From a virus, in the IMG/VR virus record IMGVR_UViG_3300042923_000147, positions 1 to 22,502 of that record: a DNA stretch of 22,502 bases. The stretch is one strand, 5' to 3'. The first letter of the stretch is position 1, and each line of letters opens with the position of its first letter. A model generated the notes under the pieces. The model worked only from the letters and a program-made list of their open reading frames with translations, was not told the origin of the DNA and ran no database searches. The position numbers and the translations under genes were made by a program. Of this stretch, positions 19,487 to 22,502 are shown piece by piece.

Positions 19487-20229
19487 GCGTCCTCCGGGTC
19501 AATGGCCCAGGTGTCGTCGTCGAAGTTGGGACCGGCCGCCTGGCGGGTACCGGATGGGGAAGCCTTGGCGGTGTTGGCCGCTTTGGTCAGGTCACGGCGA
19601 ATCCAGCTGACCAGGGCGGCGAGCCACTGCTTCTCGGTCTGCACCAGCCCCTTGGCTTCGTGGTAGTTCACGAAGCCGGCGATCGCTTCCGAGGCGAAGT
19701 GCTCGAGCGTCAGCCCTGCCCGTTTGGCATACGGAGCCAATCGCTTAGGATCAGGCTCCCAGTCCAGCGTCAGCTCGAACGTCGTGCGGTGTGAGTGAGT
19801 AGATTGGTTTAAGGACGGATTGGGTGCAGCTCCTGCACCCCGTTCGGTCGTGAGCTGCACCCCGTTCTGCTGTGAGCTGCACCCCGTGCCGTCAGCTGCA
19901 CCCCGTTCATGGCGAGGTGCAACAGATGCACCCCGTACCATTTGCAGGTCGTACACCACGGGGCGGCGATCACGTCGGTCGATGTAGACGGCGGCAATTG
20001 CCTGGTTGCCACGGCTGATCCAGCCAGCGGCCTCGAGCTCGTCCAGCTTGGAACGCACGGTGCGCTCGGACAGGCCAGTGTCTTCGGCCAGGGTTGCCAC
20101 GGATGGAAAGGCAGCGCGCCCGTCGGTACCGGCGTAGTTGGCCAGGCACAGCAGCACATGGCGCGCCGGGGAGCCTTGAAGCTCGCTGGAAGGGATCTGG
20201 AGTGCCCAAGTCATGGCTTGTACGCTCAC
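19483..20229 (-). CDS. O-like replication initiator with internal iterons
   Basis: A 248-residue initiator. The N-terminal winged helix-turn-helix includes FPSVATLAEDTGLSERTVRSKLDE (about residues 41-64) and AAGWI. A low-complexity linker (about 100-140, Gly/Ala/Ser/Gln) is encoded by the iteron DNA. The C-terminal part (about 150-225, LTLDWEPDPKRL ... EKQWLAALVSWIRRDL) resembles the DnaT/YdaU-type C-terminus that contacts the helicase loader. This is the layout of lambda O, which binds iterons in its own gene. I used the GTG at 20,229, which overlaps the previous stop (GTGA); an ATG at 20,214 is possible but has no ribosome site. Confidence 0.85.
   Translation of the reverse strand: MSVQAMTWALQIPSSELQGSPARHVLLCLANYAGTDGRAAFPSVATLAEDTGLSERTVRSKLDELEAAGWISRGNQAIAAVYIDRRDRRPVVYDLQMVRGASVAPRHERGAADGTGCSSQQNGVQLTTERGAGAAPNPSLNQSTHSHRTTFELTLDWEPDPKRLAPYAKRAGLTLEHFASEAIAGFVNYHEAKGLVQTEKQWLAALVSWIRRDLTKAANTAKASPSGTRQAAGPNFDDDTWAIDPEDA
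19822..19936. repeat. Iterons inside the O-like gene; candidate phage replication origin
   Basis: Five copies of TGCACCCCGT, mostly followed by T, start at 19,834, 19,856, 19,878, 19,897 and 19,927, with spacings 22, 22, 19 and 30. Three inner copies share a longer core AGCTGCACCCCGT. The first copy is also the right arm of a perfect inverted repeat GGGTGCAG/CTGCACCC (19,822-19,840, three-base loop). Spacing of 22 is not a multiple of three, so the repeats are read in different frames and must be kept for the DNA, not the protein. A T/A-richer stretch lies just beside them (about 19,795-19,820). Lambda ori has the same location in O. Confidence 0.8.
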
Positions 20230-20966
20230 AACGAACCCCCGATACCCTTCTCGGCCAAGTAGGTCAGGCCCTTAGTGGTCACCAGCACGCTGTACGCCGC
20301 CCGCTCTTCACCCGTCTCCCAGTCCGGCTTGAGCGCCGTCACTTTGTGCTTGAGCAGGCCGGCAGTGATACGAGGCTGGAAGGCGACCCAGCGCGTCGAA
20401 CCCGCACGCCGGTAGATCCAGCGGTTCTGCTCCATCCAGGCGAACAGCTTCGCCGGCGCCAGCTGCAGCTGCTTGGCCGCGTCGGTGATGCAGATCGCGC
20501 CGCCAGCGCCAGCCAGCCGGTTGATGGCCGCGACCTTTGGGGCCTGCTTGGCCAGGGCATCCTGGAGGCGTTGGTTCTCCTCGGCCTTGTCGGCGGCCAG
20601 GCGCAGGGCCTCGGCAAAGGTGGTTGGGATCTGGACCTGGGCCACCACGCGGGCCTCCAGCTCCTGCCAGCGGTCGATGATCTTGGCGCGCAGCTCGGCG
20701 TTGTAGCCGGAGACCAGCACCAGCGCATCACGCTGGGTGAGCAGGAATTCGGGGTAGCTCTGACCGTTCTGCGGGTGCAGATAGGGGGTCTCCTCAGATT
20801 TGAGGACACCCCTCCTAGCCAGGGATCGGGCGTCGCGCAGCACGTTGTCGTGGCTCTTGCCGGTGAGGTCGGCGACCTCACGTGTCGACATGAGCTGGGA
20901 TGACTGGGCCTGGACTGTGTGGGTGCTGCCGGTGGGGGTGTTGCGTGCATCGATTGCTGTGTGCAT
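20226..20966 (-). CDS. Rha family regulator with KilAC (antirepressor) domain
   Basis: A 246-residue regulator. Residues about 24-105 form a pRha domain (LMSTREVADLTGKSHDNVLR, then EFLLTQRDALVLVSGYNAELR), followed by a helical linker, and residues about 140-246 form a KilAC/ANT domain (ITDAAKQLQLAPAKLFAWME, then YRRAGSTRWVAFQ and YSVLVTTKGLTYLAEKG). Such proteins act as antirepressors or affect lysogeny and host range. It is the second gene of the right early operon, where lambda has cII. A near-perfect 12-base inverted repeat lies inside the gene at 20,785-20,812. Confidence 0.88.
   Translation of the reverse strand: MHTAIDARNTPTGSTHTVQAQSSQLMSTREVADLTGKSHDNVLRDARSLARRGVLKSEETPYLHPQNGQSYPEFLLTQRDALVLVSGYNAELRAKIIDRWQELEARVVAQVQIPTTFAEALRLAADKAEENQRLQDALAKQAPKVAAINRLAGAGGAICITDAAKQLQLAPAKLFAWMEQNRWIYRRAGSTRWVAFQPRITAGLLKHKVTALKPDWETGEERAAYSVLVTTKGLTYLAEKGIGGSL
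20785..20812. repeat. Hairpin inside the Rha gene
   Basis: Twelve-base arms GGGGTCTCCTCA and TGAGGACACCCC with one mismatch and a GATT loop, encoding part of the RRGVLKSEETPYL segment. No T-run follows in either direction, so it is not a simple terminator; an mRNA structure or protein-binding site is possible. Confidence 0.5.
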
Positions 20967-20969
20967 AAT
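20941..20969 (+). promoter_or_regulatory. Candidate plus-strand promoter opposite the start of the Rha gene
   Basis: TTGCGT at 20,941-20,946, exactly 17 bases, then CATAAT at 20,964-20,969. The -10 is five of six to consensus, the -35 only three of six. It points at a plus-strand terminator 24 bases ahead, so any transcript would be about 40 bases. Confidence 0.35.
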
Positions 20970-20992
20970 CGACCTCGAATCGTTGTTGAAGA

Positions 20993-21017
20993 AACCGCCC
21001 TGCCAGGCGGTTTTTTT
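20993..21017 (+). terminator. Intrinsic terminator between cro and Rha genes
   Basis: AACCGCC and GGCGGTT form a perfect seven-bp stem around CTGCCA and are followed by TTTTT on the plus strand (seven T in all). In the minus direction the stem is followed by TCTTC, so it may also slow cro transcripts (a tR1-like position). No plus-strand protein gene ends here. Confidence 0.7.
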
Positions 21018-21103
21018 ATGCCTGCGATTTGGATACTGGATGGATAATCAGTCACATCAGGAATCTTTCGATACCTGTCTTGAGGGCGCAGAATTCCTAC
21101 CTG

Positions 21104-21319
21104 TTAGGCGGCCAGCTCATCCCACGGGAAGCTGGGGCACAGCGCCTCTTTCTTGAAGGCGCCAGCAGTAACCCGCTCGGCGCGCTTGGCAACCACAGGG
21201 GACATGCCGTGCTTACCGCGCACCCATCCGGAGACAGTGCTTTGGTCGACTTCCAGCTTCTCGGCAGTGATGTCTTGGGTACCGAAATGGGCAACCAACT
21301 CTTTGTAGATAGTGCTCAT
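21104..21319 (-). CDS. cro: Cro-like repressor
   Basis: A 71-residue Cro/YdaS-like protein with one helix-turn-helix: ITAEKLEVDQSTVSGWVRGK (residues 16-35). The likely recognition helix starts with DQSTVS, close to the DQASIS of the facing CI protein, so both may read the same operators. AGGAGAGG lies directly before the ATG at 21,319; a longer frame starting upstream runs through the operators and is rejected. The gene is first in the right early operon and diverges from cI. Confidence 0.9.
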   Translation of the reverse strand: MSTIYKELVAHFGTQDITAEKLEVDQSTVSGWVRGKHGMSPVVAKRAERVTAGAFKKEALCPSFPWDELAA

Positions 21320-21332
21320 GGCACCTCTCCTT

Positions 21333-21346
21333 ATGGGAATTCTCAT
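21333..21346. promoter_or_regulatory. Operator site, OR-like 1
   Basis: ATGGG-AATT-CTCAT, one base off a perfect ATGAG/CTCAT palindrome. It lies directly downstream of the proposed PR -10, covering the cro start of transcription, 24 bases from the second site. Confidence 0.8.
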
Positions 21347-21376
21347 AAGGTAGCCTATGAGAATACTCATTTGCAA
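21347..21376 (-). promoter_or_regulatory. PR-like promoter for cro and the right early operon
   Basis: On the minus strand, TTGCAA (21,376-21,371), 18 bases, then TACCTT (21,352-21,347). An operator fills the spacer and a second covers the start site, so repression by CI is expected. The -10 is weak (three of six). Confidence 0.6.
21357..21370. promoter_or_regulatory. Operator site, OR-like 2
   Basis: ATGAG-AATA-CTCAT, a perfect five-base palindrome with a four-base centre. It lies between the PR -35 and -10 and is centred about 43 bases upstream of the cI start codon, the position of lambda OR2 relative to PRM. Confidence 0.88.
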
Positions 21377-21400
21377 GGATATGGGCGGCCCCGTGATACT
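21371..21400 (+). promoter_or_regulatory. PRM-like promoter for cI, predicted leaderless mRNA
   Basis: TTGCAA (21,371-21,376), 18 bases, then GATACT (21,395-21,400). Transcription would start at about 21,407, the A of the cI ATG. No ribosome site precedes that ATG, which agrees with a leaderless mRNA as for lambda cI from PRM. The TTGCAA hexamer is its own reverse complement and also serves as the PR -35. Confidence 0.6.
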
Positions 21401-21406
21401 CCAAAA

Positions 21407-22063
21407 ATGGAACTCAAAGACCGAATCAAAGCCGCCAGAGCCAATGCCAAGCTGACGCAGGTGCAGCTTGCCGAAAAGGTTGGGATGGATCAGGCATCAA
21501 TTTCCAACCTGGAGCGCGGCAAAGCTCAAGGCACAAGCTATATCGTCCAGATCGCCAGCGTGTGCGGCGTCAGCGCGCTATGGCTCGCCAATGGCACGGG
21601 CAATATGCTGGACAAGAAAAAGCCCGAATCTTCCAACGTGGCACCTATCGCACAGGGCGAGGTGACCTATCGATATCCCGTCATCAGCTGGGTAGCTGCT
21701 GGCGCCTGGGCAGAGGCGGTAGAGCCATTCCCGCCGGGCTTTTCTGATAGGTATGAGCTCTCCGAATATGAGGCCAAAGGCCCCGCATTCTGGCTCGAGG
21801 TCAAAGGGGATTCGATGACCTCATCAGTGGGCCAGAGCATCACCGAAGGCACGCTGATTCTGGTAGATACGGAAGCAGACGCCCAGCATGGAAAGCTTGT
21901 TATCGCCAAGCTCGCGGATAGCAACGAAGCCACGTTCAAGAAGCTTGTCGAGGACGGAGGCCGTCGCTACTTGAAGCCTCTGAATCCCGCCTACCCGACC
22001 GAAGTATGCTCAGGTGATTGCCGAGTGATTGGAGTCGTTGTCAGGGCGCTGATCAAGCTGTAG
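21407..22063 (+). CDS. cI: CI-type repressor (XRE HTH + S24 LexA-like autoprotease)
   Basis: A 218-residue lysogeny repressor. Helix-turn-helix: LTQVQLAEKVGMDQASISNLERG (residues 16-38). The S24 domain shows the self-cleavage site VAAGAW (Ala98-Gly99), Ser136 in EVKGDSM and Lys178 in ATFKKL, then YLKPLNPAYP, very like lambda CI. All catalytic parts are present, so RecA-stimulated cleavage and SOS induction are expected. I chose the ATG at 21,407 because the homology starts there and the promoter predicts a leaderless message; the frame is open upstream but that part crosses the operators. It is the only complete plus-strand gene in the window. Confidence 0.93.
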   Translation: MELKDRIKAARANAKLTQVQLAEKVGMDQASISNLERGKAQGTSYIVQIASVCGVSALWLANGTGNMLDKKKPESSNVAPIAQGEVTYRYPVISWVAAGAWAEAVEPFPPGFSDRYELSEYEAKGPAFWLEVKGDSMTSSVGQSITEGTLILVDTEADAQHGKLVIAKLADSNEATFKKLVEDGGRRYLKPLNPAYPTEVCSGDCRVIGVVVRALIKL

Positions 22064-22081
22064 GTCCATCTCCCCCAAACC

Positions 22082-22105
22082 AAGCCCGCCGCGTGCGGGT
22101 TTTTT
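22082..22105 (+). terminator. Intrinsic terminator after cI
   Basis: CCCGC and GCGGG pair around CGCGT, extended by flanking A/G-T pairs, then six T residues. It lies 18 bases after the cI stop and shares 19 identical bases with the terminator before the tail tube gene. Confidence 0.85.
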
Positions 22106-22123
22106 CATGCCTGCTCATAAAAT

Positions 22124-22137
22124 ATGAGAACACTCAT
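22124..22137. promoter_or_regulatory. Operator site, OL-like 1
   Basis: ATGAG-AACA-CTCAT, a perfect palindrome of the immunity consensus. Its last T is the first base of the PL-like -35 hexamer. Confidence 0.87.
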
Positions 22138-22165
22138 TGACAGTGAATATGAGCCTACTCATAAT
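22137..22165 (+). promoter_or_regulatory. PL-like early promoter
   Basis: TTGACA (22,137-22,142, perfect -35), 17 bases, then CATAAT (22,160-22,165, five of six). One operator abuts the -35 and another fills the spacer into the -10, so it should be tightly repressed in the lysogen. It reads toward csrA. Confidence 0.88.
22149..22162. promoter_or_regulatory. Operator site, OL-like 2
   Basis: ATGAG-CCTA-CTCAT, a perfect palindrome lying between the -35 and -10 of the PL-like promoter, 25 bases from the first site. Confidence 0.88.
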
Positions 22166-22481
22166 CAGCTCATTGCCGGCTCATACGCCATGCCTTCAGC
22201 CGGTACAGCTCTTTACACAACCAGACGTGACCACCTCGACGCACCCGGGCCCTCACCCGGGTCGGGACAAGCTAAGTCGTCGACCATGCAGCCTCTGGAT
22301 AGCTGCCGGCCTCCCCTCATTGGGAGGACGCCAGACCATGCAGCCAGCCGGGAAGAACACCGTCCACGAAATGTGTGACCCGGCCAGGTGGGGATAGCCG
22401 CGGCGCGGCATGGTTTGGATAGGTTTCACCGATTGGCCTGCACACGCGGGCCAGACGGGAAACCAACCAAGGAGTAGGACC
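22166..22481 (+). other. Structured leader between PL and csrA
   Basis: No convincing gene is present in these 316 bases; the open frames begin inside operators or lack ribosome sites. Visible structure: a boxA-like GCTCTTTA followed by CACAA (22,208-22,220); a hairpin ACCCGGG/CCCGGGT with a six-base loop (22,243-22,262); a hairpin CCTCCC/GGGAGG (22,310-22,327); and a nested stem before csrA (22,422-22,464). A 19-codon frame at 22,338 behind GGAGG could be a leader peptide but is unsupported. The layout suggests an antitermination (nut-like) leader. Confidence 0.5.
22208..22262 (+). promoter_or_regulatory. Candidate nut-like site (boxA plus hairpin)
   Basis: GCTCTTTA at 22,208-22,215 equals the core of bacterial boxA, and the following CACAA keeps most of the usual AACAA. 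A seven-bp GC stem with CCCTCA loop stands at 22,243-22,262, a boxB-like position though 23 bases from the end of the boxA region, farther than in lambda. It lies just downstream of the PL-like promoter. Confidence 0.4.
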
Positions 22482-22502
22482 ATGCTGATACTGACCCGCA
22501 AG
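22482..22502 (+). CDS. csrA: CsrA/RsmA-type translational regulator, N-terminal fragment
   Basis: Only seven codons are inside the window: MLILTRK, the nearly invariant start of CsrA/RsmA proteins. AGGAG lies about eight bases upstream of the ATG, within a leader that has several GGA motifs, the RNA core bound by CsrA. CsrA-family proteins bind GGA-bearing hairpins near ribosome sites and repress translation. The gene would be the first in the leftward-lambda-like early operon driven by the PL-like promoter. The short read limits certainty, but the combination of start sequence, ribosome site and promoter context is persuasive. Confidence 0.72.

Follow-up and report, generated by a model that had tools for sequence, protein, structure and literature searches.

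Does one palindromic hexamer between cro and cI serve as the −35 element of two opposed promoters, and how many operators govern them? This question is raised by a phage immunity locus that the original prediction described as a compact switch, in which two operators control back-to-back promoters sharing a single −35 hexamer. The stretch of DNA analyzed, hereafter called the window, is a whole 22,502-bp IMG/VR virus record, possibly a genome fragment. Judged from its sequence, the phage appears to be a lambda-like, temperate phage of Pseudomonas, known from an uncultivated virus record, and its genes are arranged as follows.

Left part of the window: head and tail genes (terminase, portal, tape measure).
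Minus strand: replication genes of the lambda P-like and O/DnaT-like types.
20226 to 20966, minus strand: Rha/KilAC antirepressor.
21104 to 21319, minus strand: cro, 71 amino acids, a helix-turn-helix protein of the YdaS/P22-Cro type (Pfam YdaS, 4e-7; P22_Cro, 1e-6).
21407 to 22063, plus strand, near the right end: cI repressor, 218 amino acids (Pfam HTH_3 and peptidase S24).

The protein families bear out the predicted cI/cro switch, the two genes encoding a Cro with a YdaS/P22-Cro helix-turn-helix and a CI with HTH_3 and peptidase S24 domains. The Cro protein shows 80% identity over 71 amino acids to Cro of Pseudomonas phage D3, and CI is 47% identical to CI of phage 434 and 98% identical to CI of prophage L004 in Pseudomonas entomophila 6C6. 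In contrast to D3, cII is absent between cro and the antirepressor gene (20966–21104). A GC-rich inverted repeat at 20989–21016, in the same interval, could be a terminator. A search of Rfam gave no match.

The reading to which we assign a probability of about 0.85 is that the region is the OR of a temperate Pseudomonas phage with D3-type immunity built on the 434 plan, in which PR and PRM share the palindromic TTGCAA and are accompanied by three operators and an OL/PL pair. The observed sequence, geometry, conservation and protein families form the basis of this proposal, and binding, activation, exclusion and the transcript starts are deduced from them. The elements between cro and cI are as follows.

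21333 to 21346: OR1, ATGGGAATTCTCAT, around the predicted PR start at 21340; counterpart of an annotated D3 operator.
21347 to 21352, minus strand: predicted PR −10, TACCTT, with an 18-bp spacer; its columns are invariant in the alignment.
21357 to 21370: OR2, ATGAGAATACTCAT, in the PR spacer, centered at −43.5 of PRM; counterpart of a D3 operator.
21371 to 21376: palindromic −35, TTGCAA, predicted to be common to PR (minus) and PRM (plus); conserved in three operator classes.
21381 to 21394: OR3, ATGGGCGGCCCCGT, in the PRM spacer; its counterpart is annotated in D3, and it occupies the place of 434 OR3.
21395 to 21400, plus strand: predicted PRM −10, GATACT, with an 18-bp spacer.

Both operators of the original prediction, ATGGGAATTCTCAT at 21333–21346 and ATGAGAATACTCAT at 21357–21370, are present and lie 24 bp apart, and the second, with its center at −43.5, stands as proposed at the activating position upstream of cI. 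The further proposal of a simpler two-operator switch did not survive, however, as a third operator, ATGGGCGGCCCCGT, lies at 21381–21394 and aligns with an annotated operator of D3 (AF165214), whose type of immunity region is also that of JBD44, F10 and PMG1. The D3 record annotates three putative 14-bp operators with 24-bp spacing, as found in the window at 21333, 21357 and 21381, and in the cI orientation the two OR regions are almost superimposable, with the third D3 operator falling on 21381–21394. The two-operator reading was dropped after this alignment.

A simplified switch in which one operator both represses cro and activates cI, without OR3, draws on the observation that only two close matches to ATGAG-N4-CTCAT lie between cro and cI, OR3 matching this pattern at just 7/10 positions and being the most divergent among the operators of the window. 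However, OR3 stands in exact 24-bp register with OR2 and matches the D3-class consensus ATGGG-N4-CCCAT at 9/10 positions, a score of at least 9/10 being reached by only 3 of about 22,490 14-mers across the window. The three operators together score 26/30, a value never reached in 200 dinucleotide shuffles (maximum 22). In the aligned ATGGG-class sequences of relatives, OR3 is invariant in its ATGGG half, in the CC and in its last T. These observations make the two-operator alternative very improbable. De novo detection of three operators fails in many distant CI homologues, where scores mostly range from 19 to 22 as in shuffles, and such loci from syringae-group and enterobacterial genomes were set aside.

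The three-operator OR has a partner on the other side of cI.

22085 to 22105, plus strand, after cI: terminator-like stem and T run, CCCGC-CGCGT-GCGGG-TTTTTT.
22124 to 22137: left operator, ATGAGAACACTCAT, a perfect operator.
22137 to 22165, plus strand: predicted PL, TTGACA-17-CATAAT, 11/12, overlapping both left operators.
22149 to 22162: left operator, ATGAGCCTACTCAT, a perfect operator 25 bp from ATGAGAACACTCAT.

This operator pair and promoter downstream of cI are OL/PL, the pair being no part of the original prediction. PL is the sole promoter reported by a consensus scan of 20400–22502. The same left operator pair with 25-bp spacing around TTGACA is found in D3 and L004, in D3 likewise between cI and the left genes, and representatives of two other operator classes (AAAGG and ATAAG) carry left operator pairs at 25–26 bp. 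No third left operator turned up near 22098–22101 and 22172–22175, where the best score was 4/10. Within the 4.8-Mb genome that carries L004, the perfect ATGAG-N4-CTCAT pattern occurs only three times, always in this immunity region, supporting the idea that these sites are specific operators. The terminator-like stem after cI is the same in D3 and other relatives. The PL leader contains a boxA-like (nut antitermination) sequence, GCTCTTTA, at 22208–22215, and D3 and other relatives have CGCTCTTTA at this position.

The geometry of the two central promoters is as predicted: TTGCAA at 21371–21376 is self-complementary, and TACCTT (minus, 21352–21347) and GATACT (plus, 21395–21400) each lie 18 bp from it. 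The ATG of cI at 21407 coincides with the predicted PRM start and has no Shine–Dalgarno sequence, supporting a leaderless cI. The hexamer pairs match the consensus at 8/12 and 7/12 positions, and shuffling the intergenic region gives scores at least as high in 44% and 93% of cases, respectively. The consensus scan of 20400–22502 does not list PR and PRM, and so the consensus alone is unusable here; these hexamers are convincing because they are conserved, being in isolation no better than chance.

So that the test would not be circular, the patterns applied to viral contigs fixed OR2 and OR3, and in the ATGGG class also the PRM −10, but left the hexamer free. Counts refer to distinct cores. 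Among the matches listed for the ATGGG class, TTGCAA is present in 46/47 distinct regions, a figure to be taken as a sample from relatives that are not independent, 39 aligned ATGGG-class sequences corresponding to about 6 effective ones. The ATAAG class has TTGCAA in 35/40 regions and TTGGCAA, an offset form as in 434, in the other five; L377, a match of the ATAAG search without any switch layout, was left out. The AAAGG pattern is nearly symmetric, so that raw hexamer counts mix gaps and strands, and regions were read individually; in all 15 distinct regions read, TTGCAA follows the middle operator. The four bases 3′ of the hexamer take at least 12 forms in the ATGGG class, among the matches listed, and 19 forms in the ATAAG class.

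The flanking elements are also conserved in the ATGGG class. The PR −10 conforms to TAnnnT in 40/40 regions at spacer 18, and the PRM −10 conforms to NATANT in 39/40. Among the matches listed, 45 of 47 regions have the ATG 6 nt beyond the −10.

The Cro proteins of the ATAAG and AAAGG classes are just 43–49% identical to window Cro and differ in their recognition helices, so that a constant hexamer accompanies a changing operator code. The three operator classes have a distant Cro ancestor in common. The original suggestion that a shared −35 makes the promoters compete thus gains support, as the hexamer is kept across three operator specificities, which points to a fully shared −35 that is well supported and unusually well conserved.

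It is conceivable that TTGCAA serves PR alone as a −35, PRM having no real −35 and depending fully on CI, with the symmetry incidental. TTGCAA-18-GATACT is indeed a weak match often reached by shuffles, and several distant relatives have a PR-type −35 at this place, reading TGTCAA or GTCAA on the plus strand, without a plus-strand TTG. Asymmetric hexamers occupy the −35 place in distant families from Acinetobacter, Psychrobacter, Shewanella and Proteus and in the ATAAC class. However, about 100 distinct regions among the matches listed, spread over three classes, have a TTG on each of the two strands, in the form TTGCAA or TTGGCAA. If PR were its sole user, the hexamer would be expected to drift toward a minus-strand TTGACA, a trend seen in the distant relatives; instead, both TTGs are kept at a cost in consensus, making the PR-only explanation unlikely. 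Moraxella phage Mcat6, a distant Cro relative, has TTGTCAA upstream of cro, the offset double −35 of 434.

TTGCAA directly adjoins OR2, and so its conservation might have another cause, such as an extended contact of the OR2-bound protein or a host factor site. However, TTGCAA follows OR2 only and neither OR1 nor OR3, it is unchanged when the operator class shifts from ATGGG to ATAAG or AAAGG, and −10-like hexamers lie 17–18 bp from it on both sides, so that such a cause is highly improbable. The reading of TTGCAA as one −35 shared fully by the opposed promoters can be extended to the proposal that selection maintains it in Pseudomonas prophages with at least three different operator specificities (ATGGG, ATAAG and AAAGG), making RNA polymerase competition a conserved, repressor-independent part of the switch; we consider the chances of this broader proposal to be evenly balanced.

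The steps of CI binding, activation and exclusion are inferred from the geometry and from 434. Bound to OR1 and OR2, CI would block PR by occupying its start and its spacer, and from OR2, at −43.5, it would assist RNA polymerase in using the shared TTGCAA toward cI. With one hexamer available to σ region 4, polymerase could be loaded in just one direction at any moment. PRM would be shut once Cro, or CI at a high level, fills OR3, and PL would be under the control of the left operator pair. The analysis assigns this uncultivated phage to the D3/434 switch group and predicts its operators, its promoters and its left control region. Should the shared −35 act in this way, these prophages would supply naturally occurring switches that vary in repressor specificity while the competition element is fixed, and comparing them would allow a test of what polymerase competition contributes to the lysis/lysogeny decision.

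The layout is already known in outline from D3 and 434. The window shares with the D3-type switch three operators, a D3-like Cro, the CI DNA-binding domain and the left pair with PL, and D3, like the window, has TTGCAA after OR2 and a leaderless-type cI start. The D3 record annotates the operators and pE, but neither PR and PRM nor a shared −35. D3 has cII directly after cro, whereas the window has the Rha/KilAC antirepressor gene there; cII after cro is an accessory and not a defining feature of the D3-type switch. The N-terminal domain of CI (residues 1–68) is 76% identical to that of D3 CI, whereas the C-terminal domain is only 27% identical. The N-terminal domain of CI and the operators appear to have been swapped together. 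The CI of L011, which has AAAGG operators, reverses the D3-mosaic pattern, with 54% N-terminal and 89% C-terminal identity.

Lambda resembles the window in having three operators about 24 bp apart, OL/PL beyond cI, and a leaderless cI with its start about 42 bp downstream of OR2 (OR2 is centered at −43.5 in the window), but its operators are 17 bp long with another sequence, as against 14 bp in the window. The original prediction contrasted the locus with lambda, where PR and PRM each have a −35 of their own; this is correct but overlooks 434, in whose annotation the two −35 hexamers overlap. In E. coli, bidirectional promoters use one short element for both directions, for which RNA polymerase can compete (PMC12825309). 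Those promoters share the −10, whereas in the window it is the −35 that would be shared, so that the polymerases face apart.

The closest parallel in geometry is 434 (OL657226), where the order OR1, PR −10, OR2, −35, OR3 and PRM −10 agrees with that of the window almost base for base. In 434, OR1 lies beside the PR −10, and OR2 and OR3 stop immediately short of the PRM −35 and the PRM −10, respectively. The corresponding junctions in the window fall at 21346/21347 (OR1 and PR −10), 21370/21371 (OR2 and −35) and 21394/21395 (OR3 and PRM −10). The center of OR2 is at −43.5 from the PRM start in both. The use of PR and PRM in 434 is mutually exclusive, according to Xu and Koudelka (2000) as cited in PMC4519249 (ref. 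37) and PMC4848623 (ref. 33). The operator sequence and the Cro family differ between 434 and the window, and 434 cI has a leader with a ribosome site, whereas window cI is leaderless. The main difference in layout is one base: between OR2 and OR3, the −35 hexamers overlap by 5/6 bases in 434 (TTGTCAA) and by 6/6 in the window (TTGCAA), the promoter spacers are 17 bp and 18 bp, and the OR2–OR3 distances are 23 bp and 24 bp, respectively. The fully coincident palindromic −35, with the function predicted for it here, would thus be a small variation on a known layout.
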